From Gemmatimonadota bacterium (GTDB taxonomy: Bacteria > Gemmatimonadota > Gemmatimonadetes > Palauibacterales > KS3-K002), in the NCBI GenBank assembly GCA_020344215.1, contig CP070815.1:1-64000 (forward strand): a DNA stretch of 64,000 nucleotides, written 5' to 3'. This document shows, piece after piece, positions 10,652 through 53,353 of the stretch. Position 1 is the first letter of the stretch, and every line of letters begins with the position of its first letter. A program made the position numbers and the translations under genes. The notes under the pieces are model-generated. The model was not told the DNA's origin. It searched no databases and worked only from the letters and a program-made list of their open reading frames with translations.

Positions 10652-10658
10652 GGGCGCT

Positions 10659-15868: not shown

Positions 15869-15958
15869 ACGTTGACGATCGGTTGAGCGTTGCGGGTTAG
15901 GGTGAGTGCGCGGGTGGCTGGGAACGCTGCCCAACGCCCAAGTTCCTCAGGAGGAGAG

Positions 15959-17020: not shown

Positions 17021-17043
17021 CCCCAAGCCAACTCCGCAGCTAA

Positions 17044-38453: not shown

Positions 38454-38524
38454 CTGGCCCGTCGTCTAACGGCAGGACGCTGGACTTTGGATCCAGAGAT
38501 GGTGGTTCGAATCCACCCGGGCCA
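38454..38524 (+). tRNA. tRNA-Gln(UUG)
   Basis: It folds as a cloverleaf: acceptor TGGCCCG/CGGGCCA, anticodon stem CTGGA/TCCAG around the loop CTTTGGA (anticodon TTG), and T arm GGTGG-TTCGAAT-CCACC, with A at the discriminator position. CCA is not encoded. Its 3' half (38484-38525) is the attachment core of the mobile element to the right, so the 3' part present here came with the element. Confidence 0.95.
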
Positions 38525-38525
38525 A
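38484..38525 (+). other. attL (3' half of tRNA-Gln)
   Basis: The core starts at CTTTGGATCC in the anticodon loop and ends two bases past the acceptor stem. Two substitutions separate it from attR, both of which keep the tRNA arms intact. The integrase stop lies 72 bp to its right. Confidence 0.9.
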
Positions 38526-38596
38526 TTCCGCATAGCCACAAGCCTTTCTTGGTGTAGGCCGGGTGGGGGAGGTGGGGTTCGGTGCCAGTTTCGGTG

Positions 38597-39766
38597 TCAT
38601 GAGGCCGCCGCCTTTTGTTTCAAAACGGTAACATCGGCCTCCCTGTACTCTACGCGGTCCAGCCGCAAACGATCCCTCTGCAGGTGCCCGTAGACCCGCA
38701 TTATCAGGCTAAGGTCCCGGTGCCCCATTTCCGCTGCCACGGTATATGGAGAAATGGGCTCGCCCCCGTCCAGTGTCTGAAGCCGCGTGGCGCAGTACGT
38801 GTGGCGGGTGATATAGAGACGGGGCCTCTTGAATATCCGTGCTTCCTTGCAGAGCATGCGCAGGGCGTCCCGGATATTCGTGTACATGCCGCCTGTGATG
38901 TGGGATGGGAATATCAGATTCTGGGGCCGCCCATCGTCGATATGCTCCTCGAGTATCTCCCGCAGTTGCGGCCAGAGTGGAACCTCTCGCTCATGCCATA
39001 GCCGCTTGAGTAGCCGGTATTCATTATGCCGAATGAGTATTCGCCCGCCATCGAAATCGACGTCCGATCTCTGCGCGCCGAATATCTCGTTCGGCCGGGC
39101 ACCCGTTAGCAGGCCAAACCCGATAATCGGGCGTAGACAGGGGCAGCGTTGCGGGTACTTCCTCGCTTCTGCGTCCGCCTCACCGGCAAGGCGGAGAAGC
39201 TTGGCGGCCTCGCCGACCTCCCACCATTCAGGTGCCCCGTGCGTGACCGAGAATTCCTCAAGTTCCTTCGCAGTGGGCACGGGGTTCGTTATGGCCCTGT
39301 CCTCGCCCACGGCCCGGCGCATGAGGTTACTTAGGGCGTGGAGTTCGTGGGCGAGCGTCTGTGACGATACCTGCGGCCCGCGCCAAGCTATTAGGGCCTG
39401 AACAAATCCCTTCGTGATGTCCGACAGGTGTGGCTCGCGTCCCAGCATACGCCGGCCGAAGCCTATCACGGTGTCTAGGCTATAGCGGTCCCGCTCCACC
39501 GTGCCCGCTCGCCATTTTCGCCGCTTCCGTTCGAGGTGGTCCTTCGCATAGGCTTCGAGTTTCGGGTCGCGGCCGCGTATAGCGATCATCTTCTCAGCAA
39601 TCTTGAACGCACGGTCAAAGTCCTGGCATGCTCCCTTTTCACCGCGCTCCTTGTCGACGATCGCCAGCCTTCCGCCGCCCACATCGCGGAGGTCAAGATA
39701 CCATCCGCGGCCGTCGCGCTCGTACATCCGGTCCCGGATGCCCTTTTCCTTCGCTCGCCGTGGCAT
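38597..39766 (-). CDS. Tyrosine-type site-specific integrase
   Basis: The protein has 389 residues. The N-terminal part is arm- and core-binding (residues about 1-170); the catalytic domain has R224 (TGARPNEIFGAQ), R321-H322 in LYITRHTYCATRL, H349 in MGHRDLSLIM and the nucleophile Y359 in RVYGHL. The first His of the usual HxLRHT box is replaced (YITRHT). It sits beside attL with its 3' end facing the tRNA, the usual place for a tRNA-targeting integrase, and would catalyse integration and, with an excisionase, excision. Confidence 0.95.
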   Translation of the reverse strand: MPRRAKEKGIRDRMYERDGRGWYLDLRDVGGGRLAIVDKERGEKGACQDFDRAFKIAEKMIAIRGRDPKLEAYAKDHLERKRRKWRAGTVERDRYSLDTVIGFGRRMLGREPHLSDITKGFVQALIAWRGPQVSSQTLAHELHALSNLMRRAVGEDRAITNPVPTAKELEEFSVTHGAPEWWEVGEAAKLLRLAGEADAEARKYPQRCPCLRPIIGFGLLTGARPNEIFGAQRSDVDFDGGRILIRHNEYRLLKRLWHEREVPLWPQLREILEEHIDDGRPQNLIFPSHITGGMYTNIRDALRMLCKEARIFKRPRLYITRHTYCATRLQTLDGGEPISPYTVAAEMGHRDLSLIMRVYGHLQRDRLRLDRVEYREADVTVLKQKAAAS

Positions 39767-39772
39767 GTGTCA

Positions 39773-40117
39773 TCACCCCCTCACAAGTTTCAGGTCTGTC
39801 TTCGTGCTCGACCTGCCGTTGCGGTATTCCTGAAGTGCAGTCCGGCTGATACGCCACTCGCCGTTGGGGCTTGTCTTGCGGGCCTGTATCTTCCTCTGCC
39901 GACATAGCCGCTCCACCGTCTTGGCTGCCAGGCCAAGTAACCGACCGGCTTCTGCGGTGTTCATATCAGGGCCATCTAGCGGATCGCCGTGTGTGTCCAC
40001 CTGCTCGAGTTTCGCAATCACGAAATCGATGAGTCGATCGCCACGCACCATCGCCTCCAGCCGTGCGTAATCAGCCCGCATGCCCTCAAACTCGGCGACG
40101 AGATCGGCGAGCCTCAT
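39773..40117 (-). CDS. Excisionase-like helix-turn-helix protein
   Basis: The protein has 114 residues from ATG 40117. A coiled-coil-like N-terminus (LVAEFEGMRADYARLEAMVRG) is followed by a MerR/excisionase-type winged HTH: MNTAEAGRLLGLAAKTVERLCRQ, then KIQARKTSPNGEWRISRTALQEY. It lies 6 bp upstream of the integrase gene on the same strand, which fits an excisionase or an AlpA-like activator of the integrase. It overlaps the regulator gene upstream by 32 bp. Confidence 0.7.
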   Translation of the reverse strand: MRLADLVAEFEGMRADYARLEAMVRGDRLIDFVIAKLEQVDTHGDPLDGPDMNTAEAGRLLGLAAKTVERLCRQRKIQARKTSPNGEWRISRTALQEYRNGRSSTKTDLKLVRG

Positions 40118-40346
40118 CCTTCGCCGCCTCCTCCCGCAGCAGCTTGATATGCTCGCGTAGCTTGTCGGCGTGAGACTCCAGAGCATCGGCCAACTCGCGG
40201 GCCGCCTTCGGTGTCACCGGCCGATCGCCGCCTTTGTAACGGGCGAACGACACTGGGTGGCGGCCCGCCAGTTCGGCCAACTCGCCCTCGGTAATCGCGG
40301 CGGCCTCGATTGCCTCCCGCATGAGTCGGTCGAGCTTCTTTCCCAT
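40086..40346 (-). CDS. Small HTH regulator of the element
   Basis: The protein has 86 residues from ATG 40346. Residues 10-50 (AIEAAAITEGELAELAGRHPVSFARYKGGDRPVTPKAARELADAL) have XRE-type helix-turn-helix spacing, and the C-terminus is highly charged (KLLREEAAKDEARRSRRRV). A perfect ATAACC-N9-GGTTAT dyad lies 13-33 bp upstream of the start, a plausible operator. It is probably co-transcribed with the excisionase and integrase genes. Confidence 0.6.
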   Translation of the reverse strand: MGKKLDRLMREAIEAAAITEGELAELAGRHPVSFARYKGGDRPVTPKAARELADALESHADKLREHIKLLREEAAKDEARRSRRRV

Positions 40347-40358
40347 GGCTACCAATAT

Positions 40359-40379
40359 ATAACCATTCTTTCCGGTTAT
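40359..40379. promoter_or_regulatory. Inverted repeat ATAACC-N9-GGTTAT upstream of the HTH gene
   Basis: This exact 6-bp dyad with a 9-bp spacer lies in an AT-rich stretch immediately 5' of the small HTH gene. It is a candidate operator for autoregulation of the xis-int side; a TATATT near 40352-40357 on the minus strand could be a -10 element. Confidence 0.4.
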
Positions 40380-40506
40380 CAAGGATTAGCCTAAGCGCCA
40401 TGTCAAACAAAGGGTGCGGGCGAGCCTTAGGTGCCACAAGAAGCGGGGTGTGGCGTTCCCGCCCGGCGCCCTTTAGAGCTACCGTTACCATAGCCCGCCC
40501 TTCATC

Positions 40507-41025
40507 CTAGTCCACAAGCCTTGTTTTGCCCACGGCAATCGCCTCACTCCACTTGCCAATCCCAAGGAGGTCAGTCCGCTTGATGGTCTTCGGAGGGTTT
40601 CGCAATTCCTCAGCTGTTGCCAGTCGCCGCTCGCTTTGCGGGATGCCCGGAGACGGTTCTCTAGGAACGACCGGCTGCGTCGGCTTCGGGCTGTTATCGG
40701 CGGCTACCATTCGGTCGAACAGTTCTTGCGCGCTTGGTGGCCCTGGCGGCTCCGGCTTGCTGCGCCGCTCGGCCTTTTCGGCGTTCTGTCTAGAAAGCTC
40801 GGCAAGTGTCCGCTCGACCTTCGCCTCTTCAGCCGCTTCTGTGAGCAGCACGTTGACAAGCGCGGCCCCTTGGTTTCGCTGGCCCAGCGTTAAGCCTCGT
40901 ACCGGCTTGACCCAGCCTGCTGCGATGAGACCTCTGGCGCGTTCGCAAGTGGTTTTGTCGTCACTGCAAATCTGGATCGGCCTCTTCAGTCTCTTGTGCC
41001 AGTTCGGATCCAGTTCTTTGGTCAT
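40507..41025 (-). CDS. Element protein of unknown function
   Basis: The protein has 172 residues and its ATG follows a GAGAGGA ribosome site. The N-terminal domain (PIQICSDDKTTCERARGLIAAGWVKPVRG) is compact with two Cys; a helical, charged stretch follows at about residues 55-85, then a Pro/Glu-rich disordered segment and a conserved-looking C-terminus (KTIKRTDLLGIGKWSEAIAVG). No family is recognised. It lies 38 bp downstream of the replication gene on the same strand, so a replication-accessory role is possible but not shown. Confidence 0.65.
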   Translation of the reverse strand: MTKELDPNWHKRLKRPIQICSDDKTTCERARGLIAAGWVKPVRGLTLGQRNQGAALVNVLLTEAAEEAKVERTLAELSRQNAEKAERRSKPEPPGPPSAQELFDRMVAADNSPKPTQPVVPREPSPGIPQSERRLATAEELRNPPKTIKRTDLLGIGKWSEAIAVGKTRLVD

Positions 41026-41063
41026 TGTTTCCTCTCAAGTTTCCGGATTCGTAGCTTCGAGTA

Positions 41064-43304
41064 TCAATCGCCGACCATCGCCTGCGTTCCCTTCTCGGCC
41101 CGACAGTCGGCGCAAATCTCTTCGCCCAACAGCCGACGATCTGTCCCACACGCACGACAGGGGATGGCGCTCTCACGCTCAGGGGCATCGACCCCACGCC
41201 CCGAATTTCTGCGCATAGGTGCATAACCCTCCGAGTTTCCCGCACGGCTATTGGGATTAAGGCTATGCACAGTGCTATGCATAGCCTCCTCGCTATGCGC
41301 ATAGCTCTGGGGCCTGTGCTTAGGCTCCTGCATAACCTTAATTGGCTCTGTGGTGCGGTCTTTCGGCTGGGTTACGCGCTTATGCGTGGATTCCGGGGGG
41401 GTGGCACCAAAAACTTTCTCGGGATGTGGCAGGACCGGCCGCTCATCGGGCAACGGGTCGCCCAACCCGAGTTTGGCGGGATAGTTCTTTCGCTCCTCTG
41501 CATTGACTAGGTAGCCACGCTTGATGGCCTGACGCCCCCTGCGATTCGTGGCAGACTGACTGAGACCGAGTTCGTCTTCCAGCTGCCGGTACGTAACGTC
41601 CTTGCCCCCGAGTTCCTTGACGGCGTTGACCGTCTCTCGGGTTTCCTCAGTGACATCATCGAACGTCGCTGCCAGGGCCGTAGAAAGCAGACGGTAAGCG
41701 GTCTCGTAGTCTCGCGCATCAGCTACAACCCGTCCCCGGTTGTCCGTCTCACGAGTGCGTTGGTGGACAAGAGCACTAGCCTCGATGATTGATGCGACCT
41801 GCTGGAAGTCCCTACGCATCCGCACGTCTGTGACAGGGACGCGCCTCGCAATCTTATCCATGTAGGGGATAAGCACCGAACGATTTCCGTAGAACTCAAG
41901 CCAGCGTTGCGCCGCGTGCCAGGGTGCAAGGTCAACGCTCGACTCGGCAAGGCCAGCGTAGCGTGCCGCGATGGCGTCCACGACTTTCGCCGTCTGCTCA
42001 GGTGCGTCAGTGATGTCGACTCGGAGAGTACGTGTCGAGATTTCGGGCTCTAGGTCTTTCGTTGATGTGATTATTAGACCCGTGGGGCCCGGTCGCTCAA
42101 TGCAGCGTTCCTTCAAGCCTTCCGAAGTCTTCTCGATGGTTCGATAATTGAAACCATTGCCCCAAGCCAGTTCACGGACCAGGGTCGCACCAACGCCGTC
42201 GCGGTGAAGAGCTGCAGCCTCAGCAATCCAGACGAACGTGTGCCGAGTCTCAAATTCCGCGTACGCCAACAAGCGCTCAGACATTCCCGCCATGTCGATG
42301 ACAGCCTCGGGCGGATGAAATTCCCGAGCCGTCTCTACCGTGTAAGTTTTACCGCCAGCTGATGGCCCGGCGATGCACATGTTCGTTGGACGGGCCAGGT
42401 AGCGTGAGCTGATGCCCAGATGGACAAGTTCAACAGGCCGCGTATCTCCCGCGTAGCCGAGCTTCGCCGCAGCTACTCCCAGTAGACTCAACTGGTCCGG
42501 GGCATCTAGAACCTGAGACGCAACTCTCAAAAGCTCTTCTTCAGGAGGCGGCGCTTCAGGCCCAGCCTCAATGACAACTGGATAGCGGGCTACTGACTTT
42601 GCGATGCGCTTGAGTGAGCGTTCATCGAGCGGCGGCTGGCATCGTTCGGCGTTCAGTGTGACAAGGGCAGCGAGTATAACGTCGGCAGATGCACCACGCC
42701 GGCGCATCGTGCCCGCAAAACTGGTGAGTTCGGTCTCGCGTCGGCCCTCTTCGATGACCTCGCCAACCGAATCCGCGGCCGAGGTAGTGCCATCGGCCGG
42801 GTTAGCAGCTTGAAGCACCTGTAATGCCGGCGGAGGAAGTTCACCGATGTTAAGTGTCGTGCGGTCCCAGGTGTATTGCGCACCGTCGGGATGGATACTC
42901 GGCGGCACAATGGCATAGCCTCGGTCGCACCTGACATCGAGATGGTCACCGAGCTTCGCGTTGCCGACCTCGAAGTCGGGGCGCTTGAAGTAGAGATGGC
43001 GCCCGCCATCTGAACGGCCTGTAAGGACAGTCAGGGTTGGCTCGGCCAGGAGGCCCAACTCCTGGGCACGGGCCTCTCCTTCGGGACCGTCCACGTCAAT
43101 GATGCAGATCCCTGAAGGACCGGGTGCAAAACCGATGTTCGCCTCGGGCTCCCGCCGCCACAGCTTCAGGACCTCTCCTTGATCCGTAGTAGCATCGTGA
43201 AAGCCCCGACCGCCGAGCGGCTGTTTGCTGCGACACCCGAGCGGAAAGACATACCACCCGCGCCTGGCGTATTCGAGTGCCGCAGCAACCAGTCGCCTGT
43301 CCAT
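41064..43304 (-). CDS. Fused primase-polymerase / P-loop ATPase replication protein
   Basis: The protein has 746 residues from ATG 43304, which overlaps the stop of the upstream gene (TGATG). Residues 1-165 form a Prim-Pol domain: FPLGCRSKQP, catalytic IIDVDG (D70, D72), GGRHLYF (H103) and LDVRCDRGYAIVPPSIH. Residues about 190-245 are PriCT-1-like. An ATPase domain has Walker A AGPSAGGKT at about 312-320. A winged-helix-like segment follows (TYRQLEDELGLSQSATNRRGRQ), then a long disordered tail and a terminal zinc ribbon (CRACG ... CADC). It should start and drive element replication, as the Pri-Rep proteins of phage satellites and plasmids do. Confidence 0.88.
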   Translation of the reverse strand: MDRRLVAAALEYARRGWYVFPLGCRSKQPLGGRGFHDATTDQGEVLKLWRREPEANIGFAPGPSGICIIDVDGPEGEARAQELGLLAEPTLTVLTGRSDGGRHLYFKRPDFEVGNAKLGDHLDVRCDRGYAIVPPSIHPDGAQYTWDRTTLNIGELPPPALQVLQAANPADGTTSAADSVGEVIEEGRRETELTSFAGTMRRRGASADVILAALVTLNAERCQPPLDERSLKRIAKSVARYPVVIEAGPEAPPPEEELLRVASQVLDAPDQLSLLGVAAAKLGYAGDTRPVELVHLGISSRYLARPTNMCIAGPSAGGKTYTVETAREFHPPEAVIDMAGMSERLLAYAEFETRHTFVWIAEAAALHRDGVGATLVRELAWGNGFNYRTIEKTSEGLKERCIERPGPTGLIITSTKDLEPEISTRTLRVDITDAPEQTAKVVDAIAARYAGLAESSVDLAPWHAAQRWLEFYGNRSVLIPYMDKIARRVPVTDVRMRRDFQQVASIIEASALVHQRTRETDNRGRVVADARDYETAYRLLSTALAATFDDVTEETRETVNAVKELGGKDVTYRQLEDELGLSQSATNRRGRQAIKRGYLVNAEERKNYPAKLGLGDPLPDERPVLPHPEKVFGATPPESTHKRVTQPKDRTTEPIKVMQEPKHRPQSYAHSEEAMHSTVHSLNPNSRAGNSEGYAPMRRNSGRGVDAPERESAIPCRACGTDRRLLGEEICADCRAEKGTQAMVGD

Positions 43305-43774
43305 CAGTTCTCGAAGGGCAGGTCGTCCTGCTCGGCCTCGAGGTCCTCTGGGTTCAGCCCTTTGGGCCACAGGACATCGAATTTGCGGAAGTCCTGCTTC
43401 GTCCGCTTCGTCGTGCCCCAACCCTCGTGGCACACGCAGACGACCTCACCGCGTCGATCCGGTGAAATGGTGTTCTTGAGGTTGGCGCATGAGAGGCCAA
43501 CGTTGACGATCATCCCGACTTCGACAGGGTACTCCTTGAGGTCCTTGTCCTTTCCCGTAACGGCCACCATGCCAGGGGCGGCCTTATCGACGAGGACGCG
43601 GGCGACTTCGCCGAAGTCACCCTTCCAGACCTCCATCACCGTGCCCTCGACGTAGGCTTCGCGGTCGTCTCCTTTCTCCGGCCACCGGATGAAGGGTGCT
43701 TGCCCGTTGCGGCTCGAGCTTTCCGCGCCGCTGTCGCGGAGCTCTTGCGCGTAGGACTTTTGCTGCTTACTCAT
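43304..43774 (-). CDS. Putative ssDNA-binding OB-fold protein with SSB-like acidic tip
   Basis: The protein has 156 residues from an ATG with an AGGAGGT site. The central part is beta-rich and OB-like (AYVEGTVMEVWKGDFGEVARVLVD, VEVGMIVNVGLSCANLKNTI, GEVVCVCHEG). The C-terminus is acidic and ends EAEQDDLPFEN, close to the DDIPF tip by which bacterial SSB recruits replication proteins. It is translationally coupled (TGATG) to the Prim-Pol gene. I infer an element-encoded SSB analogue; overall similarity to classical SSB is not obvious. Confidence 0.6.
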   Translation of the reverse strand: MSKQQKSYAQELRDSGAESSSRNGQAPFIRWPEKGDDREAYVEGTVMEVWKGDFGEVARVLVDKAAPGMVAVTGKDKDLKEYPVEVGMIVNVGLSCANLKNTISPDRRGEVVCVCHEGWGTTKRTKQDFRKFDVLWPKGLNPEDLEAEQDDLPFEN

Positions 43775-43862
43775 TCAACAACCTCCTAAAGGTTTTGCCC
43801 CGTTTGCTGGTCGTGGGTGTCCGGCGAGCGGGGCGTTTTCCTCGCCGGTCTTACTATTCCTC

Positions 43863-44105
43863 CTAGCTCTGACTTGCCACAGCCGTCGCGGCTGCTTTGA
43901 CGAAAGCGGTTCGAGACTCCGCGATTTCTCTCCTGAGCGTTTCACTCGTCACGCCTAGGATCTGCGCAAGTCGTCTAATGTGCTCATCTGTCGGGATGTG
44001 CTCGCTTCGCTCCCATGCACCGACCAGAGGAACGGAGACTCCGAGCAGGGCCGCGAGTTGGCTCCGCGTCAGGCCGAGTTGCTCACGTCTTTTCCGCAAA
44101 TCCAT
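43863..44105 (-). CDS. XRE-family HTH regulator (Cro-like position)
   Basis: The protein has 80 residues from ATG 44105. It is a classical XRE helix-turn-helix: LRKRREQLGLTRSQLAALLGVSVPLVGAWERSEHIPTDEHIRRLAQILGV, then a helical tail. It is first in the leftward early operon and divergent from the larger HTH gene across 129 bp, the position of Cro in lambdoid phages or of the early activator in satellites. Confidence 0.85.
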   Translation of the reverse strand: MDLRKRREQLGLTRSQLAALLGVSVPLVGAWERSEHIPTDEHIRRLAQILGVTSETLRREIAESRTAFVKAAATAVASQS

Positions 44106-44234
44106 ACGACACACGCTCCTTTAGGCTCTTGACCGTCGCGTACAAATATCGCTGTCGCTGTTGCTATTCGTCGCCTAAATGGTGTATTATGTTTTAGTCG
44201 AAATTATCTAAAACTTTAGACACTGATTTTGCAG
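44106..44234. promoter_or_regulatory. Divergent early control region with CTAAA/TTTAG operator candidates
   Basis: This AT-rich region lies between the two HTH genes. GTTTTAG (44191-44197) and CTAAAAC (44208-44214) form a perfect 7-bp inverted repeat with a 10-bp spacer. Further half-sites are CTTTAGAC at 44214-44221, CCTAAAT at 44174-44180 and TTTAGG at 44121-44126. Repeated half-sites between divergent regulators are what a cI/cro-type switch needs. Confidence 0.5.
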
Positions 44235-44726: not shown

Positions 44727-45068
44727 GTGGCAAAGCGAACGACCAGGCCTTTCGCCGGTAGACGCCGAAGAAGTCAACGCCCCCGGCTTGCATCACCGGC
44801 GCCACCACAGACGGCATCCTGATTGAGGGCTGCGACACTGTCCGGGTTCTCGAGTAGTACGATTCGTGGCAGGTGTAGACTACGAAAGGGGCGCTGCTTA
44901 AGAAGTACGAACAGCCGAACTGACGCTGCTCGTTGAAGCGCGCCCACCGATACCGCATCTTTGAGCACAACTGGGTGCCCTTAATCCCCACATACCTCAG
45001 GCCGCAGGTGGTAATCCATGTCTGGTCTGAAGCGGCTGATTCGCGCGCTAATGGCTAATTTTTCGTCC
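44727..45068. other. Non-coding or decayed stretch
   Basis: No convincing gene is seen. Minus-strand frames give two short protein-like fragments (for example LPRIVLLENPDSVAALNQ and GGVDFFGVYRRKAWSFAL) in different frames, which may be the remains of a lost gene that I cannot name. The right part (44953-45043) is one copy of a direct repeat whose other copy is at 46414-46500. Confidence 0.5.
44953..45043 (+). repeat. Direct repeat, copy A, flanking the DUF3800 module
   Basis: About 91 bp are similar to 46414-46500, including a 21-bp identical block (44987-45007 versus 46447-46467). Outside the block the copies share CCGCATCTTT at the left and AGCGGCTGAT at the right, with small length differences. 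Confidence 0.7.
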
Positions 45069-45098
45069 TTGACACGGATAAGGCTGCACGGCTATCAT
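45069..45098 (+). promoter_or_regulatory. Strong sigma70-type promoter
   Basis: TTGACA (45069-45074), an 18-bp spacer, then TATCAT (45093-45098), giving 11 of 12 consensus positions. No open reading frame with a ribosome site follows. The predicted start is near 45105, ahead of two GC-rich hairpins. Confidence 0.55.
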
Positions 45099-45104
45099 GG
45101 AGTT

Positions 45105-45178
45105 GCAGGTTGCGACCCCGGCCGCAGAGCCGGGGAGTGCACTTGCCCTGCCGGCTCCCTCTGGGGGGCCGGCAGACG
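45105..45178 (+). ncRNA. Candidate small non-coding RNA with two hairpins
   Basis: From the predicted start near 45105 the transcript would fold hairpin 1 (CCCCGGC/GCCGGGG, 45116-45135) and hairpin 2 (CTGCCGGC/GCCGGCAG plus an inner CCC/GGG, 45148-45175), followed by GACGTTT. The second hairpin can serve as terminator both for this RNA and for the convergent DUF3800 gene, whose stop codon is at 45180-45182. An ATG at 45097 lies within the -10 element and has no ribosome site, which argues against a peptide. Confidence 0.4.
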
Positions 45179-45179
45179 T

Positions 45180-46001
45180 TTATCTGGCCCCCGCAAGCCG
45201 GACGATCCCCTGCCGGTCGCTGTGGCTCGCCCTAGTGTTCAGCTGAGATAACGGGATCTGGTCGTAGAGATCGCCCAGGTCGTTCTGTTCCTGCCAGGTG
45301 TGAAGCGTGCCCTGCTCCTTACCGATCTTCAGGAACAGGGCGTAGACTATGAGGTCGGCAACTTGAGTGTAGTAAGAGAAGTGTGAGCGCTTGATGTTCC
45401 CGTCCTTCGTGAAGAGGGCCATTGGGATATTCCGGGTCTGCTGCCCACCGTCCCATCCCTCGGGAAACATCGACCCGGTCGGCAGATATATAAGGCTTCG
45501 CCGGTAGAGCTTGGTGAACTCACCGTGCCCTTCGTCGAAGAATACGAGGCCGTTCCGGTTTGTGTTGCTACATGCTTTCTGCATACGCTGAAACAGCGCC
45601 ATCAAGGCGGCCTCCCACTTGCTCTTGTCATAGAGGTGCGCCCCTCCGGTTGCGACTACCGAGATGATCGACTTTTCCGGAAAGAAGCTGAGTCGCGACA
45701 AGAGATCCCGATAGACCCCGGCCGCCGCTTTCCGCGAGAACTGCTGCTTTCCGTGACGGTACCGGCCCCGGCCGGCGGCTAGCTTGACGCCGTGGAACTC
45801 TTTCGACATCGGGATACCGTGCGTCTTCAGGGCGTACCGACGCCAGTCTTTCACCGCCTCGAAGTGGTCCGGCCATACGATCGTCCACACCCCCTCTACC
45901 TGCCGGAGGAAGGGTATCGCAATCGCCGTGAACGCGAAGATCTCCGGGGTTCCCGACTCGTCGACGTAGAAGATGTCTATGCCGCCTGACTCTAGTCTCA
46001 T
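45180..46001 (-). CDS. DUF3800 domain protein
   Basis: The protein has 273 residues from ATG 46001, chosen because the domain begins at DIFYVDESGTPEIFAFTAIAI. Typical DUF3800 acidic positions are present: YVDESG near the N-terminus, VFFDEGHGEF in the middle and YYTQVADLIVYALFL near the C-terminus. The family is predicted to have an RNase H-like fold with a metal site, and is frequent on phages and mobile elements; its role is not settled. It converges on the candidate small RNA and is bracketed by a direct repeat, so it looks like an acquired module. Confidence 0.8.
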   Translation of the reverse strand: MRLESGGIDIFYVDESGTPEIFAFTAIAIPFLRQVEGVWTIVWPDHFEAVKDWRRYALKTHGIPMSKEFHGVKLAAGRGRYRHGKQQFSRKAAAGVYRDLLSRLSFFPEKSIISVVATGGAHLYDKSKWEAALMALFQRMQKACSNTNRNGLVFFDEGHGEFTKLYRRSLIYLPTGSMFPEGWDGGQQTRNIPMALFTKDGNIKRSHFSYYTQVADLIVYALFLKIGKEQGTLHTWQEQNDLGDLYDQIPLSQLNTRASHSDRQGIVRLAGAR

Positions 46002-46196
46002 GCCTATACCATCAGTGGAAGATGAGAACCAGCGAGATTTTCCTATTATCCGGACAGGAGGTTCAAACCATCCGCAATGCCGGGCCGACCCCGTAGTCTT
46101 AGCTGTGGATCGTGTCGGCTTGTGGACTGCGGGGGCGCTCCAAGTTACGCGAGCAGGAGAGGCATATACAAGGCCAACGGGTCTTGGACCTTCGCT

Positions 46197-46397
46197 ATGA
46201 GGGACGCCGGCTTCGTGCTGGAGTTTATCGGGGGATCGCTCGAGTACGACGAGGACTCTGGCCACCTGCAGATACGCCTGGACGATGGGAGCCGTCTTCT
46301 GGTCGCTTCCTGCTGGGAGGACGGCTGCCACCTAGTACTGGATACCCCTGGCAAGCGTTGCAACGGGCCTGAGAGCCGCCAGTCATGCGGTGATTGA
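46197..46397 (+). CDS. Possible small acidic protein
   Basis: An ATG at 46197 gives 66 residues: MRDAGFVLEFIGGSLEYDEDSGHL, then QIRLDDGSRLLVASCWEDGCHLVLD. The amphipathic beta pattern looks protein-like, but there is no clear ribosome site and no known family. It lies in the upstream region of the DUF3800 gene on the other strand. It may be a gene or a fragment. Confidence 0.3.
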   Translation: MRDAGFVLEFIGGSLEYDEDSGHLQIRLDDGSRLLVASCWEDGCHLVLDTPGKRCNGPESRQSCGD

Positions 46398-46413
46398 TAC
46401 CCGGCCACAGAGG

Positions 46414-46500
46414 CCGCATCTTTTAAGGGCAACCAAGTGCCCGTAACCCACATACCTCAGGCCGCAGTTAGCAGTATGAAGCGTCTCAAGCGGCTGATCG
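46414..46500 (+). repeat. Direct repeat, copy B, flanking the DUF3800 module
   Basis: This is the partner of 44953-45043, in the same orientation. Together the copies enclose the candidate small RNA, the DUF3800 gene and the short ORF at 46197. Confidence 0.7.
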
Positions 46501-46572
46501 TCTAAGTCCACACTGTCAGCAGGCGGGCCCCGCCTAGTTCGCCGTCTCGCTAGGACTAGTCGGTAGCGATAT

Positions 46573-46691
46573 CTGTTGCTCTTCCGTGCTCAGTTCGGCA
46601 TACTGTAAGCTCACCGGGAGGGGCTGAGGACGTAGCGATGTAAGTCTCGCTGGTCCGGGAGACCTCGGCCGTGGAAGTACACCACGTTCCT
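46573..46691 (+). promoter_or_regulatory. Promoter plus structured leader, left copy of an inverted pair
   Basis: A -35 TTGCTC (46576-46581), a 17-bp spacer and -10 CATACT (46599-46604) are followed by about 85 bp that recur inverted at 50633-50717. Conserved parts include ACCGGGAGGGGCTGAGGA, the hairpin AGCGA-N8-TCGCT, and an outer GAGG/CCTC pairing. The spacer between the promoter boxes differs strongly between the two copies while the boxes and leader are kept. It drives the PEGA lipoprotein gene 278 bp downstream. Confidence 0.55.
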
Positions 46692-46968
46692 GCCTGTTCA
46701 CCTAGCTGGTCCGTTCCCACCGCTAGAGGTTCTGCATCCGCCCGATCATCGAGCCCGAAGGGTTCTCTCAAACGACTTCGGGATTCGCCTAGTGACAGCG
46801 AACGGGGACCGAACGTGGGTGACAGGTTGCACTCCCTTCGGCGCCTGACAACGTCGCGGCACGAGCGAAGGTGGTGCTCAAGGTTACTCAGAAAATCACA
46901 TTCTAGGTTATACATCTTGTGCTTACCACCTAACCTGCGATCCAAACACCACCAACCTGGGGGCACTC

Positions 46969-47577
46969 ATGACGCACAAAGCGAGCTACGGCAGCCTCAC
47001 CCTCATAACCGCTCTCGTCGTGACCGGCTGCGCATCGATCGTTTCGGGAACAACCCAAGACATGACTGTAACGAGTAATGTGGAGGACGCCGAGATTTTC
47101 CTTGACGGCGTGAGGATCGGTACCACGCCGTTCACCGGCCTGGTGAAGAAGAACAAGGGCCAGTTGAGGGTCGAGCAGGAGGGCTATGAGACTGGAACGC
47201 TCACGCTGTCCAAGTCGCTTGATCCCTGGTTCTGGGGGAACATCATCATTGGTGGCACGGTTGGCAGCATAACTGATTTCGCGACCGGCGCTGCCTTTAC
47301 GTACGCCCCGGCGTCCTACCGGGTCGAACTCCAAGCTGAGGGCCAATCTGCAAACGACTTTCAGCAGCAGGTCAGACTGCGGTGGTTCTCCATGATTTAC
47401 ATCGACGAGATATCGAGGGACATCTCGCAGGGAGGCGGCGATTACCTCTCCGCCCTCGTAACGCTACTTGAGGAACACGGCGGCGAAGAGATTGATCCAG
47501 TGGCGATCAGCGACGCCCTCGCGACCAGTGGCGGTGACCCGAATCGCTTCGGAGACTGCCTGACTGAGCTTTTCTAG
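46969..47577 (+). CDS. PEGA-domain lipoprotein
   Basis: The protein has 202 residues. The signal ends in a lipobox LVVTGCAS, so the mature protein would be lipidated. Residues about 30-75 form a PEGA domain (MTVTSNVEDAEIFLDGVRIGTTPFTGLV, then LRVEQEGYETGTLTLSKS), a beta-fold common on surface-exposed bacterial lipoproteins. A hydrophobic stretch (FWGNIIIGGTVGSITDFATGAAF) follows. The gene is upstream of and nearly adjacent to the DUF4105 gene (3-bp gap), suggesting that the two act together at the envelope. Confidence 0.82.
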   Translation: MTHKASYGSLTLITALVVTGCASIVSGTTQDMTVTSNVEDAEIFLDGVRIGTTPFTGLVKKNKGQLRVEQEGYETGTLTLSKSLDPWFWGNIIIGGTVGSITDFATGAAFTYAPASYRVELQAEGQSANDFQQQVRLRWFSMIYIDEISRDISQGGGDYLSALVTLLEEHGGEEIDPVAISDALATSGGDPNRFGDCLTELF

Positions 47578-47580
47578 AAA

Positions 47581-49119
47581 GTGCTCAGTAGCCTGCGTAC
47601 CGCCGGTCTGCTGTGGCTCGCCCTGACCGGCGGTACAGCCTCCGCCCAACAGCCATCCCTTTCGGGCGGCGGTCCAGTATACCTGGCTTACGCCGGACCG
47701 TATTCGTCGAGTCCATCCTCAGCGTTTGGTCACATTCTCCTTATTCTGCCGTCTGACGCGGACGAGGCTCCCCCACTATGGGACGTGGTCAGCTTCATCG
47801 CAGAGACCAACGACGCCGGTCCGATCCGTTACGTCGCCGTGGGGATCGCCGGTGGTTTTCTTGGCCGGTATCAGCGCTTGGAGTTCCACGAGAAGACGCG
47901 AGACTACCAGTTGCTTGAAGACCGAGATATGTGGCTGGTTCTGCTTCAGCTGACTCCCGAGCAACGCCAGGCCCTCGAGGACGAATTCACCGCTACGAGC
48001 GGGCGCTGGTACCCATACACATTCTTCAAGAAGAACTGCGCCTACTACATACAGCTTCTGCTTGCACGTGCGACAGGGCAATTGGGGCCACCGCGTGGTA
48101 CAGTGAGCCCGACAGGTGTCATGGACGCAGCCCTAAACAGCAGCCTAGCAGGTCCCAGCTACTTCCGTCCGGCGGTTTCCCGAAAGCTCGAAGCGATGAG
48201 CAACAGCGTAGATGAAGGCGTACTTGCTCGGTTGCGGCGTGAGTCTTGGACCACTGTGGCTGCAGATACAGCGTGGTTGCAGGGACTTCCTGGCCATGAG
48301 CGGCGGTTTGTCCAGGAGTACTTTGCCTGGAAGACTCTTGACCGACAGTCGGCCCTCGACGAGCCGACCCGCCGTGGGCTGGCACTTTTGCGCGTGCTCA
48401 ACGCCCGCGAGGCCCCGCAGGAGGAGGTATCCGATGCCGCTCAGGACGCAGGGCAACCGATACCGCCTCCGGTGTTCTACCGGTACAGCCGTATCAGGCT
48501 CTCCCATCTTTGGGCGGCCTCTGCGGCTCACCGCATCTCTTTCCGATACCGGGGCGCGTTGCAAGATGAAACCGATCCCGGGATCGCTCATAGACCCCTC
48601 AACGTGCTCGAGTTCCTCGCGTTAGAAGTCTCGGTGCCAACCGATCGGTTCGCTCCGCGTCTCGACGCTCTGGTCCTCTTCTCCCAGCGCTCACTTAGTC
48701 CTTCCAACTGGATTACTACACGCAGCTCGTGGATGCTTGAGGCTCTGGCTCGCCGCGGCGGTCTCTTCGGACACGACGCACTCCACCTGGAGGTACGAGC
48801 AGGGGCTGGTAGGACCGTGCGCCTGCCCGCCCGGGTCTTCTTCTACGGATTGATCACCGCGGCGGGCGTTAGCCATTGTTGCAGCCAAGCGGCGTTCGCG
48901 CCGGGCCTGGAGCTGGGCATAGTCTGGCTGGCCACCCGCCGGTCGCGTCTCGGCTTTCGCTGGACCCGCGAGTACGACGTTTCGGACTGGTCGCATGACC
49001 ATCAGCGCGTCCGAGGCTGGCTCCGATACGACCTCGGCCGAACCTGGGGCGTCACCGCGAGCGGTGATGCGGGCCCGCTCGGCGACTATCTCACTCTGAG
49101 CCTGGATTGGTATCCGTAG
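47581..49119 (+). CDS. Secreted DUF4105 (Lnb N-terminal-like) protein with C-terminal beta-rich domain
   Basis: The protein has 512 residues with a GTG start. A signal peptide (LLWLALTGGTASAQQ) is followed by a DUF4105-like domain at about residues 35-190, with the typical SSSPSSAFGHILLIL and the Cys-containing KKNCAYYIQLLL. The C-terminal 200 residues have alternating hydrophobic strands ending in an aromatic (SLDWYP), like an outer-membrane beta-barrel. DUF4105 is the N-terminal domain of the Lnb lipoprotein-modifying enzyme in Gram-positives; its role in diderms is unclear. It is coupled to a lipoprotein gene, so lipoprotein handling is a possible theme. Confidence 0.75.
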   Translation: MLSSLRTAGLLWLALTGGTASAQQPSLSGGGPVYLAYAGPYSSSPSSAFGHILLILPSDADEAPPLWDVVSFIAETNDAGPIRYVAVGIAGGFLGRYQRLEFHEKTRDYQLLEDRDMWLVLLQLTPEQRQALEDEFTATSGRWYPYTFFKKNCAYYIQLLLARATGQLGPPRGTVSPTGVMDAALNSSLAGPSYFRPAVSRKLEAMSNSVDEGVLARLRRESWTTVAADTAWLQGLPGHERRFVQEYFAWKTLDRQSALDEPTRRGLALLRVLNAREAPQEEVSDAAQDAGQPIPPPVFYRYSRIRLSHLWAASAAHRISFRYRGALQDETDPGIAHRPLNVLEFLALEVSVPTDRFAPRLDALVLFSQRSLSPSNWITTRSSWMLEALARRGGLFGHDALHLEVRAGAGRTVRLPARVFFYGLITAAGVSHCCSQAAFAPGLELGIVWLATRRSRLGFRWTREYDVSDWSHDHQRVRGWLRYDLGRTWGVTASGDAGPLGDYLTLSLDWYP

Positions 49120-49529
49120 AGTGCACCGTGCTAGGCTCGACGGAATCATCCTCAGCTTCCAGGCGCTGCTGGGGAAGTACGGGTAGGGAAGCTCTTCGGC
49201 CCACATTCGCCGTCTGAGCGCACTTCTGGGCCCTGGCCCTACCCAGAGTCTCGCTTATGATATTTGGCCCTGAAGGCTATCTGGGGCACCGATCTTGGCA
49301 CCGGCTAAACAATACCCAGCCTGAAGTCGCACCGCTGCTTGCCTCTTGGCTGGTGGGACACTGGACCCTATGTCCACCTCCCCCCGGATAACACGCCAGG
49401 GGTACAGCACGGAATGGCGCACTCGAGCCGCCACAATGACAAGTCAAATCAAGACATACCTGGACTGGTAGACTGATTGGCGACCCCTAAGGGTGGGGAC
49501 TGGCGATGCGAGCGGGACTGCGCGGTTGG
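49120..49529. other. 410-bp intergenic region between convergent genes
   Basis: No supported gene is seen. A 22-codon GTG frame directly after the DUF4105 stop (ARLDGIILSFQALLGKYG) may be a remnant. A short dyad ACCC-CTAA-GGGT at 49485-49496 could end transcription from both sides. Confidence 0.5.
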
Positions 49530-49859
49530 CTATTCCTTGTTGCAGACGGGGTCCCACTTGTCTCTCAGGTCGCTCTCCTCTGCGAGACGTACTTCTAGAG
49601 AAGTATTGTAATGAGTATGGATGTGGGTTGCGCCGTTTTCCTCTATGCACGGTCCTTTCTCGTGGCCGGCAAAGCGCTTGCCGAATCCCTCTCCGGTTTC
49701 CCCGATGTAAATAGGGGTCCACCCGTCTGGCGATGCTTCCTTGGCATAGATGTAGTTCCCCGGAATATCCTGGAACTGTTGATCAATTCCATCAACCAAG
49801 TAAACATACTTCTTGCCAGACTGACCCTCCCATTCCCATTGCCCGTCTGGGTTCGCCAT
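49530..49859 (-). CDS. Small GIY-YIG nuclease-like protein
   Basis: The protein has 109 residues from ATG 49859 with a GGAGG site. GIY-YIG features are GNYIYAK at residues 34-40, YIG at 51-53, the catalytic Arg in GKRFAGH (about 62), Glu in VRLAEESDL (about 94) and Asn in PVCNKE (107). It is a stand-alone catalytic domain with no DNA-binding module. Such small proteins occur on phages as homing or anti-competitor nucleases. It lies downstream of the lipoprotein gene, separated by a long hairpin. Confidence 0.72.
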   Translation of the reverse strand: MANPDGQWEWEGQSGKKYVYLVDGIDQQFQDIPGNYIYAKEASPDGWTPIYIGETGEGFGKRFAGHEKGPCIEENGATHIHTHYNTSLEVRLAEESDLRDKWDPVCNKE

Positions 49860-49890
49860 GATGGACCTCCAGTCAAATGGGATTTGGCGC

Positions 49891-49921
49891 CGACCTCCCG
49901 GGTCAGTGACCTGGGAGGTCG
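49891..49921. terminator. Long near-perfect hairpin between lipoprotein and GIY-YIG genes
   Basis: CGACCTCCC pairs with GGGAGGTCG, and inside it GGTCA pairs with TGACC around a single G, giving a 14-bp stem in 31 nt. It lies 22 bp past the lipoprotein stop and 31 bp before the GIY-YIG start. There is no T-run, so it may be an RNA-processing or protein-binding site instead of a simple terminator. Confidence 0.45.
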
Positions 49922-49942
49922 AACGCCGCGCCACGTTCAGCA

Positions 49943-50467
49943 CTACTGACTGCCGTAGCCCGCGGGGTTAGCGTGGGCGTCCCAGATGTGTTCGCCTTCG
50001 AAAGTACCGTGCGATATGATTACCTCAAACTGGCCCCAGACAGGGTACCCGCCGTCATGCCAGCACGGACTGGCCTCGAGCTCTGGACCGACCCAAACGA
50101 TCATGTAGTGCCATGTCTCGCCGCTGCCCCCCGGAAACATGCCGTTCCACTGGTTGTCCTCGAAAGCATCACAGTTCCATTCACCGCCGTGGAAGCGGGC
50201 CTCATCCCATGCCTTCGACCACATCATCTTGAGTCGGTCGTTGGCATAAGTGGGGTCGCCCCAGACCATGCCATCGAGGATTCGGTCCACGCCGTCGGCC
50301 GGCCCCACAAAGACGCGGGAACTGTAGTTGTAGCCAAACTCATCAAAACCACCATTAGCCGAGAACTGAGGCGTGCTGACGAGTCCGTCAGGTACCTCGG
50401 TTGGCTGGCTGTCGCAGGACACAAACGCAAACACCATAACGACCAGCATGGTGATGAACTTCCGCAT
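49943..50467 (-). CDS. Element-encoded lipoprotein of unknown function
   Basis: The protein has 174 residues from ATG 50467 with a GAGAG site. The signal ends with a lipobox-like FAFVSCDSQ. The mature part is Trp/Gly/Asp-rich (MVWGDPTYANDRLKMMWSKAWDEARFHGGEWNCDAF, HYMIVWVGPELEASPCWHDGGYPVWGQFEVIIS) with three Cys. It looks like a compact extracytoplasmic domain; no family is recognised. It is expressed from the right copy of the duplicated leader. Confidence 0.7.
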   Translation of the reverse strand: MRKFITMLVVMVFAFVSCDSQPTEVPDGLVSTPQFSANGGFDEFGYNYSSRVFVGPADGVDRILDGMVWGDPTYANDRLKMMWSKAWDEARFHGGEWNCDAFEDNQWNGMFPGGSGETWHYMIVWVGPELEASPCWHDGGYPVWGQFEVIISHGTFEGEHIWDAHANPAGYGSQ

Positions 50468-50820
50468 AGTATTCTCTCTCATTCAAAGGCTGCGCTTGCC
50501 GTGAACAACGAACGACTGCCCCACGGTCACTCGCGTGCGAACTTCTGGAGGAGCACGCTCACGTACAGGGAAGCCTCGGCGGATACAGGCGCAACACGGT
50601 GGGATTGGCGCCTGAAAGCATGGAAGCAAGTAAGGAACACTGCGAACTGCCACGACTGAGGTCCCCCGAACCAGCGAGACTTACTTCGCTACATCCTCAG
50701 CCCCTCCCGGTAGCCGCAGTATGGTGGACGCATTCTGACAAAGCAACAGCTAACCGGAACGGCTATCGACTGTTAACACTACGTTAAGACGCGCTGCCCA
50801 CTTTGGCGCCATGGACACAA
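50468..50820. other. Upstream region of the lipoprotein gene, mostly non-coding
   Basis: It contains the right copy of the duplicated promoter-leader and an AT-richer stretch near 50755-50790 (CTGTTAACACTACGTTAA). No gene is supported here. Confidence 0.5.
50633..50749 (-). promoter_or_regulatory. Promoter plus structured leader, right copy of an inverted pair
   Basis: Minus-strand -35 TTGCTT (50746-50741), a 17-bp spacer and -10 CATACT (50723-50718) are followed by the same leader as at 46605-46691, with scattered substitutions. The hairpin AGCGA-N8-TCGCT is kept. It lies 166 bp upstream of the lipoprotein start. The two copies face each other across 4 kb. Confidence 0.55.
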
Positions 50821-51054
50821 TCACCTGGCCGACGTTGACGGAGCGACTGCCGGGGTTCGCGGCCCTGTTCGGCCTTCGGGGCGTCCTCTCTTACCTGTGT
50901 GGATTACGGGGCGTGCTTTGACGGGGTGTTTGCAGGCTTTGCGGAGTTCTGGCAGGTCGGGTATTCCCCAAGCTTCGGCTTCACTTCTTAGCGTGTCTGC
51001 CCGACTCACAGTCGGAAAGGCACCATACTGCCGCGTAGGTTCCGTTCCATGCAC
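50821..51054 (-). CDS. Possible small protein downstream of terL
   Basis: The ORF has 77 codons and overlaps the terL 3' end by 49 bp. The middle (EAEAWGIPDLPELRKACKHPVKARPVI) reads like protein; the C-terminus is basic and low-complexity. It occupies the position where a portal gene would normally start but has no portal features. It may be real or chance. Confidence 0.25.
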   Translation of the reverse strand: MHGTEPTRQYGAFPTVSRADTLRSEAEAWGIPDLPELRKACKHPVKARPVIHTGKRGRPEGRTGPRTPAVAPSTSAR

Positions 51055-52448
51055 CGATAGCGTGCTTCATCGGCGACGTGGTCTTCGGCGGTTGTGTCGA
51101 CGTCCTCAATTTTGCGGGGGTCGCGGGGCAGGGTAGGGACAGTACGGATGAAGTGGACGCAGGTATCGAAGACGTAGAGGCCCGGGTCCTCCGGTTTGTC
51201 CTCAAGTGCGGCCTTCAGCATCTTCCTCATCCGCTCCCAGCCGATCTGGCGTGACCCAGGCCGCTTGTCTGCTTTCGTCCACCTGACTCCGACCGTCGCC
51301 ATGTCGTCCCCTATGCTGACGCCACGGTCGGCGTCGTAGATGGAACTGTCGGCTGGTCCAGTTTCGACCTTGCGGCCCTTGATAACGCAGGATGGCTTGG
51401 TAGGTGGGTGTATATCTGGGATGCTGAGTCCCATCTCCTCTTCACGCTCAAGGATGCCCTCGGCGATCTCTACGGCCAGCATCCGGCACCCCTCATTCGG
51501 CCGGCCATTCCAGCCGTACCATTCGGCGATACGGAAAAGGGTCCCGCGAGGGTAGGTCTTGCCGTTTGGTGCTTCAGTGCCGTCAGATTCAGCCCACCAG
51601 CCCACTGAGAAGGGTTTGGCAGACCCCCAGTCAAACGAGCGGTTCACACGCCACGTGCGGGGGATTTCGAAGGGCCTAATCACGTGCACATCCCGGCGCC
51701 ACACATCATCGAACATCCCACCGGCCACGATATCCCATATGCCCCAGCGCCAGGCATTAACCAGCCACTCAGGGCCGCTCGCCTCAATGCGTTTCCAGTA
51801 GTCAGGGTCCTGGCGCAGCAGGATGGCGTTGTCTTCCAGTCGCCCGGGTATGAATACCCGCTCGATGCCGTCAGGGCCGGTGAAGGGAACCCACGGCGGG
51901 GACGGGTCGATATAGCGGGCCTTCACCCAGTTGTGCCCCGATCCGCCCGGGTTGCCGGTTGAGCGACGAGCACAGGGTACGCCATAGGGCGAACGCAAAC
52001 AGGCGAAGAGCTTGTCGATTGGCACCGGTGAGGGCCAGTCAGGGAGTTCGTCAAAGCCCTGCCAAGAGTACTGGTGGCCGTGGTAGTTATCGGCATCGGC
52101 ATCCACATCGAGGTAACGGAGAAGGAGCCGGGCACCGTTGGGTGCCGTCCAGGTGCGCCGTGAGACATTCCGCTGCCAGCCCAGCCGCGGGAAGAGCTCG
52201 CCGACCCGGTACTCGACTTCCTCCAGTTTCGGGTACGTGCGCCGGAAAAAGATGCCCCGAGCAGCCGCCCCGTATCGGTCGGCGTGGTTCAGCCAGTCGC
52301 CTATCAAGCCATCAGTCTTGCCCGGGCCTCGCGCACCACCACAGAAGACATCCAAGACTGGGCAGGCTATCAATGCCCGCTGGAAGCCGGGCTGGGGTGC
52401 CCAGACTACTTCGGTGCGTCGTCGCGTGGGGCGAAGCGTTGCTGCCAT
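51006..52448 (-). CDS. Phage terminase large subunit
   Basis: The protein has 480 residues from ATG 52448. The ATPase half has Walker A FCGGARGPGKTDG (residues about 36-48), the arginine-rich FFRRTYPKLEEVEYRV and Walker B-like YSWQGFDELPDW. The nuclease half has RSFDWGSAKPFSVGWW, DSSIYDADRGVSIGDD and the terminal KIEDVDTTAEDHVADEARY, so all catalytic Asp regions are present. It appears complete and functional. It packages DNA into procapsids, yet no portal or capsid gene follows. It overlaps the 77-aa gene upstream by 43 bp. Confidence 0.92.
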   Translation of the reverse strand: MAATLRPTRRRTEVVWAPQPGFQRALIACPVLDVFCGGARGPGKTDGLIGDWLNHADRYGAAARGIFFRRTYPKLEEVEYRVGELFPRLGWQRNVSRRTWTAPNGARLLLRYLDVDADADNYHGHQYSWQGFDELPDWPSPVPIDKLFACLRSPYGVPCARRSTGNPGGSGHNWVKARYIDPSPPWVPFTGPDGIERVFIPGRLEDNAILLRQDPDYWKRIEASGPEWLVNAWRWGIWDIVAGGMFDDVWRRDVHVIRPFEIPRTWRVNRSFDWGSAKPFSVGWWAESDGTEAPNGKTYPRGTLFRIAEWYGWNGRPNEGCRMLAVEIAEGILEREEEMGLSIPDIHPPTKPSCVIKGRKVETGPADSSIYDADRGVSIGDDMATVGVRWTKADKRPGSRQIGWERMRKMLKAALEDKPEDPGLYVFDTCVHFIRTVPTLPRDPRKIEDVDTTAEDHVADEARYRCMERNLRGSMVPFRL

Positions 52449-52639
52449 TCCTCTACGTCCTTGGCGGGTTCGGGTACCAGTGCAACGGGCCACTCGGGCA
52501 GGTAGGCGTTCAGCCACGCTTTGCCCTTCGTGGATTCGAGGTCGAGGTCGTCAGGGAAGCGGAGAACCCCGGTGCGCCTGGCTGAGCCAAGCTCTTCTTC
52601 GAGCCGCTCCAACCGGGTCCGAACATTCTCGCGGGTCAT
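52406..52639 (-). CDS. Small protein between terminase genes
   Basis: The protein has 77 residues; its ATG overlaps the stop of the TerS-like gene (ATGA). A coiled-coil N-terminus (NVRTRLERLEEELGSAR) precedes a short Trp/Pro-rich acidic part (YLPEWPVALVPEPAKDVEEWQQRF). The layout suggests a terminase accessory or linker protein. No family is recognised. Confidence 0.65.
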   Translation of the reverse strand: MTRENVRTRLERLEEELGSARRTGVLRFPDDLDLESTKGKAWLNAYLPEWPVALVPEPAKDVEEWQQRFAPRDDAPK

Positions 52640-53037
52640 CGCCAGGGCTCGGAGCTGTCCTTCAATTCGTCGGCGGTCTCTTCAAGCGCAGCAAGGCGCC
52701 GCTCAAACTCCGAGTCCTGCAAGATGCTCCGCTGCTCTCTCGCCAGGACCGCAATGGCATTGGCGACCTTGGAATCGAAGTTGAGACGGCCGAGCCGTTC
52801 CAGTGCACGTCCCAAGACCCCCTTCAGACCATCGAGCGTAGTGGGGTCGAGGTCGCTGATGTCGAGCGGGGCTGTCCGGTTCAGTTTCTGGCGGCCGCCC
52901 TCTCGACTGCGTTCCCGGTGGGACTTCGCGTGCGCGGGGTGGTGCACGGTACAATAGTCCTGATCCTTGATTGCGTCCTTCTTACACGGCTCACCGAACC
53001 GGGTGATAGCCGCGCACTTCTTGCTTAGGCCCTCCAT
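52636..53037 (-). CDS. Putative terminase small subunit with Cys/His zinc-like N-terminus
   Basis: The protein has 133 residues from an ATG with a GAGGAA site. The N-terminus CAAITRFGEPCKKDAIKDQDYCTVHH has a C-x10-C-x10-C-x2-H arrangement like the HGG-type zinc motif proteins often found next to phage TerL. A basic stretch (HRERSREGGRQKLN) and two helices with coiled-coil character follow. Its place two genes before terL, with ATGA coupling, supports a DNA-recognition role in packaging. Confidence 0.6.
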   Translation of the reverse strand: MEGLSKKCAAITRFGEPCKKDAIKDQDYCTVHHPAHAKSHRERSREGGRQKLNRTAPLDISDLDPTTLDGLKGVLGRALERLGRLNFDSKVANAIAVLAREQRSILQDSEFERRLAALEETADELKDSSEPWR

Positions 53038-53074
53038 CGTTCCTCGTTCTCGGTGTCAGAATGGGTGACAAAAC

Positions 53075-53104
53075 GGGGTACCCCGCAGTGCCGCGGGGTA
53101 CCCC
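53075..53104. terminator. Perfect 12-bp-stem hairpin upstream of the terminase operon
   Basis: GGGGTACCCCGC and GCGGGGTACCCC flank a 6-nt loop, so each arm also contains the palindrome GGGGTACCCC. It lies 38 bp upstream of the TerS-like start and 63 bp inside attR. It could insulate the element from host transcription, or be the cos/pac recognition site of its terminase. Confidence 0.5.
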
Positions 53105-53131
53105 TTGAGTCTTGCTGATGCCTGCTAGTTC

Positions 53132-53353
53132 CTAGTGCTTCGGTACTAATCGCCCAGGTTGGTAGCCTTTGGATCCAGAAATGGTGGTTCGAGTCCACCC
53201 GGGCCAATCGACTCCGCGCTCGCAAGCCTGGTCCAGGGCTGCGAGCAACGCTTCCCGGACCAGCCAATCGAGTCCCTCACGGTCGGTGTCCGTGACCTGA
53301 GGTTCGGACCCCACGAGCTGGAGCTGTGCGTCGGTTCGGTATTTCGGTGTCAC
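53132..53353 (-). CDS. Small host protein whose C-terminus crosses attR
   Basis: A GTG at 53353 follows an ideal AAGGAGGT site and gives 73 residues: TPKYRTDAQLQLVGSEPQVTDTDREGLDWLVREALLAALDQACERGVDWPG, then a tail that is antisense tRNA sequence (WTRTTISGSKG) and ends inside the element. The first 50 residues read like a real helical protein of unknown function. Integration or excision would change the last residues. Confidence 0.5.
   Translation of the reverse strand: MTPKYRTDAQLQLVGSEPQVTDTDREGLDWLVREALLAALDQACERGVDWPGWTRTTISGSKGYQPGRLVPKH
53167..53208 (+). other. attR (displaced 3' end of tRNA-Gln)
   Basis: It matches attL at 40 of 42 positions, from the anticodon loop to just beyond the acceptor stem. 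No 5' half of a tRNA precedes it, so it is the chromosomal copy pushed away by integration. Confidence 0.9.

Follow-up and report, generated by a model that had tools for sequence, protein, structure and literature searches.

The stretch of DNA that we analyzed (referred to here as the window) comprises the first 64,000 nucleotides of contig CP070815.1, from a Gemmatimonadota bacterium (assembly GCA_020344215.1) whose genome is a single contig of 4.74 Mb. In the window, a tRNA-Gln(TTG) gene is followed by an element that carries an integrase, a replication protein, and a terminase gene set. An earlier reading of this DNA, made from the sequence alone (the original prediction), placed the element between two 42-bp att copies, and the direct repeat that we found bears this out (Table 1). 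The GC fraction is 0.58 to 0.63 inside the repeats versus 0.65 to 0.68 outside. In a genome of the same genus (G001) the site is empty: the orthologous tRNA-Gln gene is directly followed by a Na/Ca-exchanger gene, which in the window is the right-hand neighbor of attR, and window positions 38531 and 53683 map 106 bp apart. In two genomes of the same family (G003 and G005), tRNA-Gln is likewise followed by a sodium/calcium exchanger gene. Because the flanks adjoin in G001 and the repeats bound the interval, the interval is an insertion of 14,682 bp, site specific and located at tRNA-Gln(TTG). Like a satellite, it is integrated and has an integrase and att sites.

The predicted set of TerS-like protein, linker, and TerL (TerS and TerL being the small and large terminase subunits) is present at the right end of the element, with all three genes on the minus strand and reading inward from attR. 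The full-length TerL retains every column that is invariant across six phage homologues, and its nuclease and ATPase motifs are complete. In the TerS-like protein, residues C8, C18, C29, and H32 are invariant in 11 relatives, and the predicted structure is a zinc ribbon plus three helices (predicted local distance difference test [pLDDT] value, 85). Its position and this model suggest that the zinc-ribbon protein is TerS. Among solved structures, none matched TerL and none was convincing for TerS. Small open reading frames (ORFs) of the RxLxxLE type, recognized by eye, adjoin the TerS gene at three other loci (L195, L214, and L225).

No recognized particle gene accompanies this terminase. Neither Pfam nor PHROGs gave a portal, capsid, tail, or lysis family among the ORFs of the element (one family table listed 25 of 53 families, and a second scan covered the smaller proteins left over), in agreement with the original prediction that nothing resembling a portal, capsid, tail, holin, or lysin gene is present. 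When the whole element was searched by blastx against ORFs from some 200 loci of phages and prophages, only TerL and Prim-Pol matched; therefore, there is no recognizable wreck of structural genes. As in satellites, the full virion gene set is missing, and the portal and capsid genes that stand next to terL in a complete prophage are absent.

All of the genes of the left arm, from the integrase to the 156-amino-acid (aa) protein, are oriented toward attL, and divergent regulators come next. The intact integrase, excisionase-like protein, Prim-Pol, and divergent regulators that had been predicted were recovered as Pfam or PHROG matches; the label "SSB-like" given to the 156-aa protein could not be upheld, as that protein has no family match in either database. 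The P-loop ATPase part of the Prim-Pol protein was read by eye. A protein scan of viral contigs gave no Prim-Pol relatives. The integrase is 81% identical to an integrase in G001 and 33 to 35% identical to those of two elements described below (L223 and L196). In G001, a second tRNA-Gln copy has an integrase-xis-regulator module that is 75% identical to the window element (C1:36811-41130; L080, 811-5130), with a different replication gene and neither Prim-Pol nor terminase. Elsewhere in that genome, two fragments of the 3′ end of terL (C1:3453733-3454005 and 3456160-3456260; L050), 71 to 79% identical as protein and 80 to 86% identical as DNA, are located next to a ribosomal-protein operon, flanked by genes for hypothetical secreted proteins. 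These fragments and the terL-less module indicate that such genes decay and shuffle within the genus.

Table 1. Features of the tRNA-Gln(TTG) element, in window positions
Feature	Position	Strand	Evidence or remark
tRNA-Gln(TTG), integration target	38455..38525	+	ARAGORN; Rfam tRNA 66.7 bits
attL, 3′ part of tRNA-Gln	38485..38526	+	42-bp direct repeat, 40/42 with 53167-53208
Tyrosine integrase, 389 aa	38597..39766	-	PF00589 1e-10; phrog_1 2e-37
Excisionase-like HTH_17 protein, 95 aa	39773..40060	-	PF12728 3e-10; weak excisionase PHROGs
Small HTH regulator, 98 aa	40086..40382	-	HTH_31 under curated cut-off; 76% to G001 orthologue
172-aa protein kept in integrase module, no assigned function	40507..41025	-	47% to G001 orthologue beside its integrase
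Prim-Pol + PriCT_1 + P-loop ATPase replication protein, 748 aa	41064..43310	-	PF09250 3e-41; PF08708 4e-13
156-aa protein overlapping Prim-Pol start	43304..43774	-	No Pfam/PHROG match
XRE-type regulator	43863..44114	-	HTH_3 1e-14
Divergent regulator (repressor candidate), 165 aa	44229..44726	+	Weak HTH_3; distant orthologue in G001 element
Dispersed repeat 1, copy 1	44929..45045	+	About 10 copies in own genome
DUF3800 cargo	45180..46007	-	PF12686 1e-7
Dispersed repeat 1, copy 2	46386..46511	+	
Dispersed repeat 2	46544..46725	+	5 matches in own genome
PEGA-domain lipoprotein cargo	46969..47577	+	PF08308 7e-10
Lnb_N + DUF7840 membrane protein cargo	47581..49119	+	PF13387 3e-21; PF25222 2e-21
137-aa protein	49530..49943	-	GIY-YIG-like by eye only; no Pfam match
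Secreted or lipoprotein-like cargo, 179 aa	49943..50482	-	No Pfam match
Dispersed repeat 2, inverted partial copy	50633..50711	-	
TerL, up to 503 aa, full length	51006..52517	-	phrog_979 6e-23; 54-57% to TerL of complete phages
77-aa linker between TerS and TerL	52406..52639	-	No family match
TerS-like zinc-ribbon protein, 133 aa	52636..53037	-	Position upstream of TerL
attR	53167..53208	+	Second copy of 42-bp direct repeat (2 mismatches)

In two overlapping samples of genomes from the class or phylum, 14 of 394 and 15 of 395 carried a member of the TerS-like family (about 4%). There are eight loci with a TerS-like gene beside terL and more than 1.6 kb beyond terL (the window, L219, L222, L223, L226, L227, L331, and L334), and at all eight no recognized portal or capsid gene was found there; at L334 the match to the TerS profile is confined to its helical part, and several of the comparison genomes are fragmented. 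Four elements, of 8.7 to 14.7 kb, are bounded by att sites at a tRNA or tmRNA gene: the window element (14.68 kb), L227 (tmRNA; 8.73 kb; att 20/23), L226 (tRNA-Cys; 14.03 kb; att 47/47), and L331 (tmRNA; 14.15 kb; att 21/23). Three relatives are one-ended, with an integrase beside a tRNA gene (L223, tRNA-Lys; L219, tRNA-Ile; L196, tRNA-Pro). No portal or capsid gene was recognized in any of these six relatives. In related genomes, the TerS-like family recurred in small tRNA/tmRNA terminase elements, and the integrase family in two of them (L223, E value of 3e-43; L196, 8e-30). No relative was found to carry this element together with a portal-capsid-tail block, an arrangement that would mark the window element as a deletion derivative.

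The order of integrase, replication gene, zinc-ribbon TerS, and TerL recurs in other elements, and the replication genes differ: Prim-Pol in the window, an AAA_25 ATPase in L227, a DnaB-like helicase in L226, a primase/helicase in L331 (which the window Prim-Pol matches at 5e-23), and a REP_ORF2-like gene in L223. In the TerL tree, the other elements form the clades L219+L226+L227 (SH-aLRT support, 100), L196+L334 (95), and L223+L222 (100), with 41 to 50% identity within the first two. Clades this deep suggest that the elements have long persisted without capsid genes, which is hard to reconcile with recent prophage deletions. In L331 (9898-11435), two overlapping ORFs make up TerL (an ATPase of 279 aa and a nuclease-like protein of 239 aa), each with its own PHROG family matches. 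In L223, positions 4585 to 11131 of this capsid-less terminase element hold a cargo of BrxC/D, TerB_C, and other defense-like genes.

Outside these elements, neither 50,697 phage records nor the viral contigs that we scanned gave a significant match to the TerS-like protein, and no relative of it lies next to the phage TerLs examined; the gene upstream of terL in MW202444.1, L006, and L112 does not encode the zinc-ribbon protein. Weak TerS matches in E. coli phages were rejected, being located within a large unrelated gene.

Our preferred reading, held with moderate confidence, is an integrative phage satellite with its own packaging motor, no recognized particle gene, and a borrowed virion. 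The element probably parasitizes other viruses, bringing along its own motor to fill their shells. The original prediction had also preferred a satellite bringing its own motor to a precise loss of structural genes, and the recurrence of the TerS-like and integrase families in elements without portal or capsid genes supports that preference. In the proposed cycle, the integrase and Xis would excise the element when a helper phage was induced or infected the cell, and Prim-Pol would copy the excised element. The zinc-ribbon protein, acting as TerS, would mark the element's DNA, and TerL would dock on the portal of a helper procapsid and fill it with that DNA, after which helper tails and lysis would release the packaged element. 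The TerL lineages possibly differ between elements because each TerL would have to fit the portal of whichever helper is present locally. The host genome itself has a patchy phage region (G000:C1:1435200-1471913) with a different TerL, a tape-measure-like protein, a Prim-Pol, and, at 1,447,683 to 1,450,691, an HK97-type portal, a protease, and a truncated capsid match; this region is a possible helper relic.

Several points weigh against a satellite with a borrowed virion. Excision, packaging, and the role of the helper are steps that we infer. The window TerL groups with phage TerLs, unlike the TerLs of the other elements. A fold search with the TerS model gave no match at an E value of ≤0.001. 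No relative in the viral contigs has the zinc-ribbon TerS, and scans of viral contigs with the satellite TerL clades gave no match. TerS-family loci without terL exist (L216, L225, and L228), and in L214 terL has possibly decayed. L335 has a TerS-family protein near tail-like genes, and in L226, an att-bounded element of 14 kb, a tape-measure-like gene (15232-17109) is the sole recognizable tail gene.

The alternative that survives best, although we consider it unlikely, is that one deletion or a small number of them removed the portal-capsid-tail-lysis block from a prophage, the gap later being filled by cargo with dispersed repeats and the TerS-TerL pair being left over. Because TerL reads from attR into the element, the expected place for structural genes is the one that the cargo now occupies, and the copies of repeat 2 flank the cargo in inverted orientation. 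The closest TerLs (54 to 57% identical) are those of four viral or prophage loci (L006, MW202444.1, L112, and L113), each with a portal gene after terL, and the last three also have protease and capsid genes (annotated or by appearance). MW202444.1 gave both the best TerL match among the phage records (54.5%) and the second-best Prim-Pol match. Because the nearest TerLs sit in complete phages with a portal, a deletion derivative would be favored if this evidence were taken alone, and the closeness of the TerLs lends some probability to the loss of a structural block. However, no remnant of structural genes was found, and both TerL and TerS are intact. A precise loss is made less likely by the recurrence of the TerS-like and integrase families in tRNA/tmRNA elements that lack portal and capsid genes, since the identical loss would be needed repeatedly at separate sites.

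More broadly, one of two portal types lies close downstream of TerL in at least 68 of 123 homologues from viral and genome contigs. Other portal types are present in L112, L113, and G163; for this reason L112, L113, and others were rejected as portal-less loci. In G163, terL is followed by portal-, scaffold-, and capsid-like genes (by eye), as in an ordinary prophage, here within the class. A distant TerL-like match (29%) lies at 2405-3637 of OY725860.1, a Subdoligranulum plasmid of 6,285 bp.

It is improbable, though conceivable, that TerS-TerL is kept for another job, either interfering with or decoying the packaging of an infecting phage (in defense or competition) or mobilizing neighboring DNA. 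The defense-like cargo of L223 would fit such a job, as would stand-alone chromosomal TerS-TerL pairs with no integrase nearby (L334 and L222), but the nuclease and ATPase motifs are complete, and in bounded elements the pair accompanies integrase and replication genes. Very improbable is a decaying integrative element that captured a phage terminase and in which nothing is functional any more: the terL fragments and the terL-less integrase module of G001 speak for decay, but the integrase, Prim-Pol, TerL, and TerS genes of the window are open and full length, and elements of this kind maintain three TerL lineages.

A terminase without portal or capsid is not described for any satellite family in the literature searched, which left out most subscription papers. 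The cfPICIs are integrative satellites with their own small and large terminase subunits (PMC10690885), and in this the window element resembles them; however, cfPICIs also encode a major capsid protein, protease, portal, and head-tail connectors, and of this set we found the terminase only. With classical PICIs and SaPIs the element shares an integrase, an xis/AlpA-like gene, regulators, primase-type replication, a TerS-like gene, a length of about 15 kb, and the lack of a capsid, but it differs in having a full TerL; SaPIs have only TerS, or cos, and depend on the large terminase of the helper (PMC10690885, PMC7567579). P4 relies on the helper terminase for its packaging (PMC10690885), and no terminase was identified in the AH14b satellite (PMC4936722); both are integrated and, like the window element, have a primase and lack capsid genes, whereas the window element has its own TerL. 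The Streptomyces satellites Mulch and Flayer have TerS and TerL, as here, but also portal and capsid, and they have no obvious replication genes (PMC10690885). Putative att-flanked satellites with capsid genes and no terminase genes, the reverse of the window combination, may carry a tape-measure protein (PMC10448857), as L226 does. Among complete phages, MW202444.1, L006, and L112 are similar in TerL, and MW202444.1 also in its Prim-Pol protein; they differ in the portal after terL and, in MW202444.1 and L112, in the protease and capsid.

The middle of the element is cargo: a DUF3800 protein, a PEGA lipoprotein, an Lnb_N/DUF7840 protein, and two small proteins. The cargo blocks are bracketed by both dispersed repeat families (Table 1), which also adjoin each other near 1.515 Mb, beside a secreted-protein gene. 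The repeats around the cargo are possibly a cassette or capture system.

The satellites with a zinc-ribbon TerS can be proposed as a class, with TerS and TerL side by side, no portal after TerL, and an integrase at a tRNA or tmRNA gene. The window element, L226, L227, and L331 have all of these features and are att bounded; L196, L219, and L223 count as one-ended members. The chances seem to us about even that this bacterial class hosts a diversified family of satellites with a zinc-ribbon TerS, their own TerL, and no capsid genes, which carry their motor to helper portals and swap TerL as helpers change. Zinc-ribbon TerS plus TerL, with no portal and with an integrase at a tRNA or tmRNA gene, provides a search signature for satellites in poorly studied bacteria. 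If this view is correct, the specificity of TerL for the portal would be bridgeable between separate genomes, and these elements would be a natural test of portal recognition by TerL.

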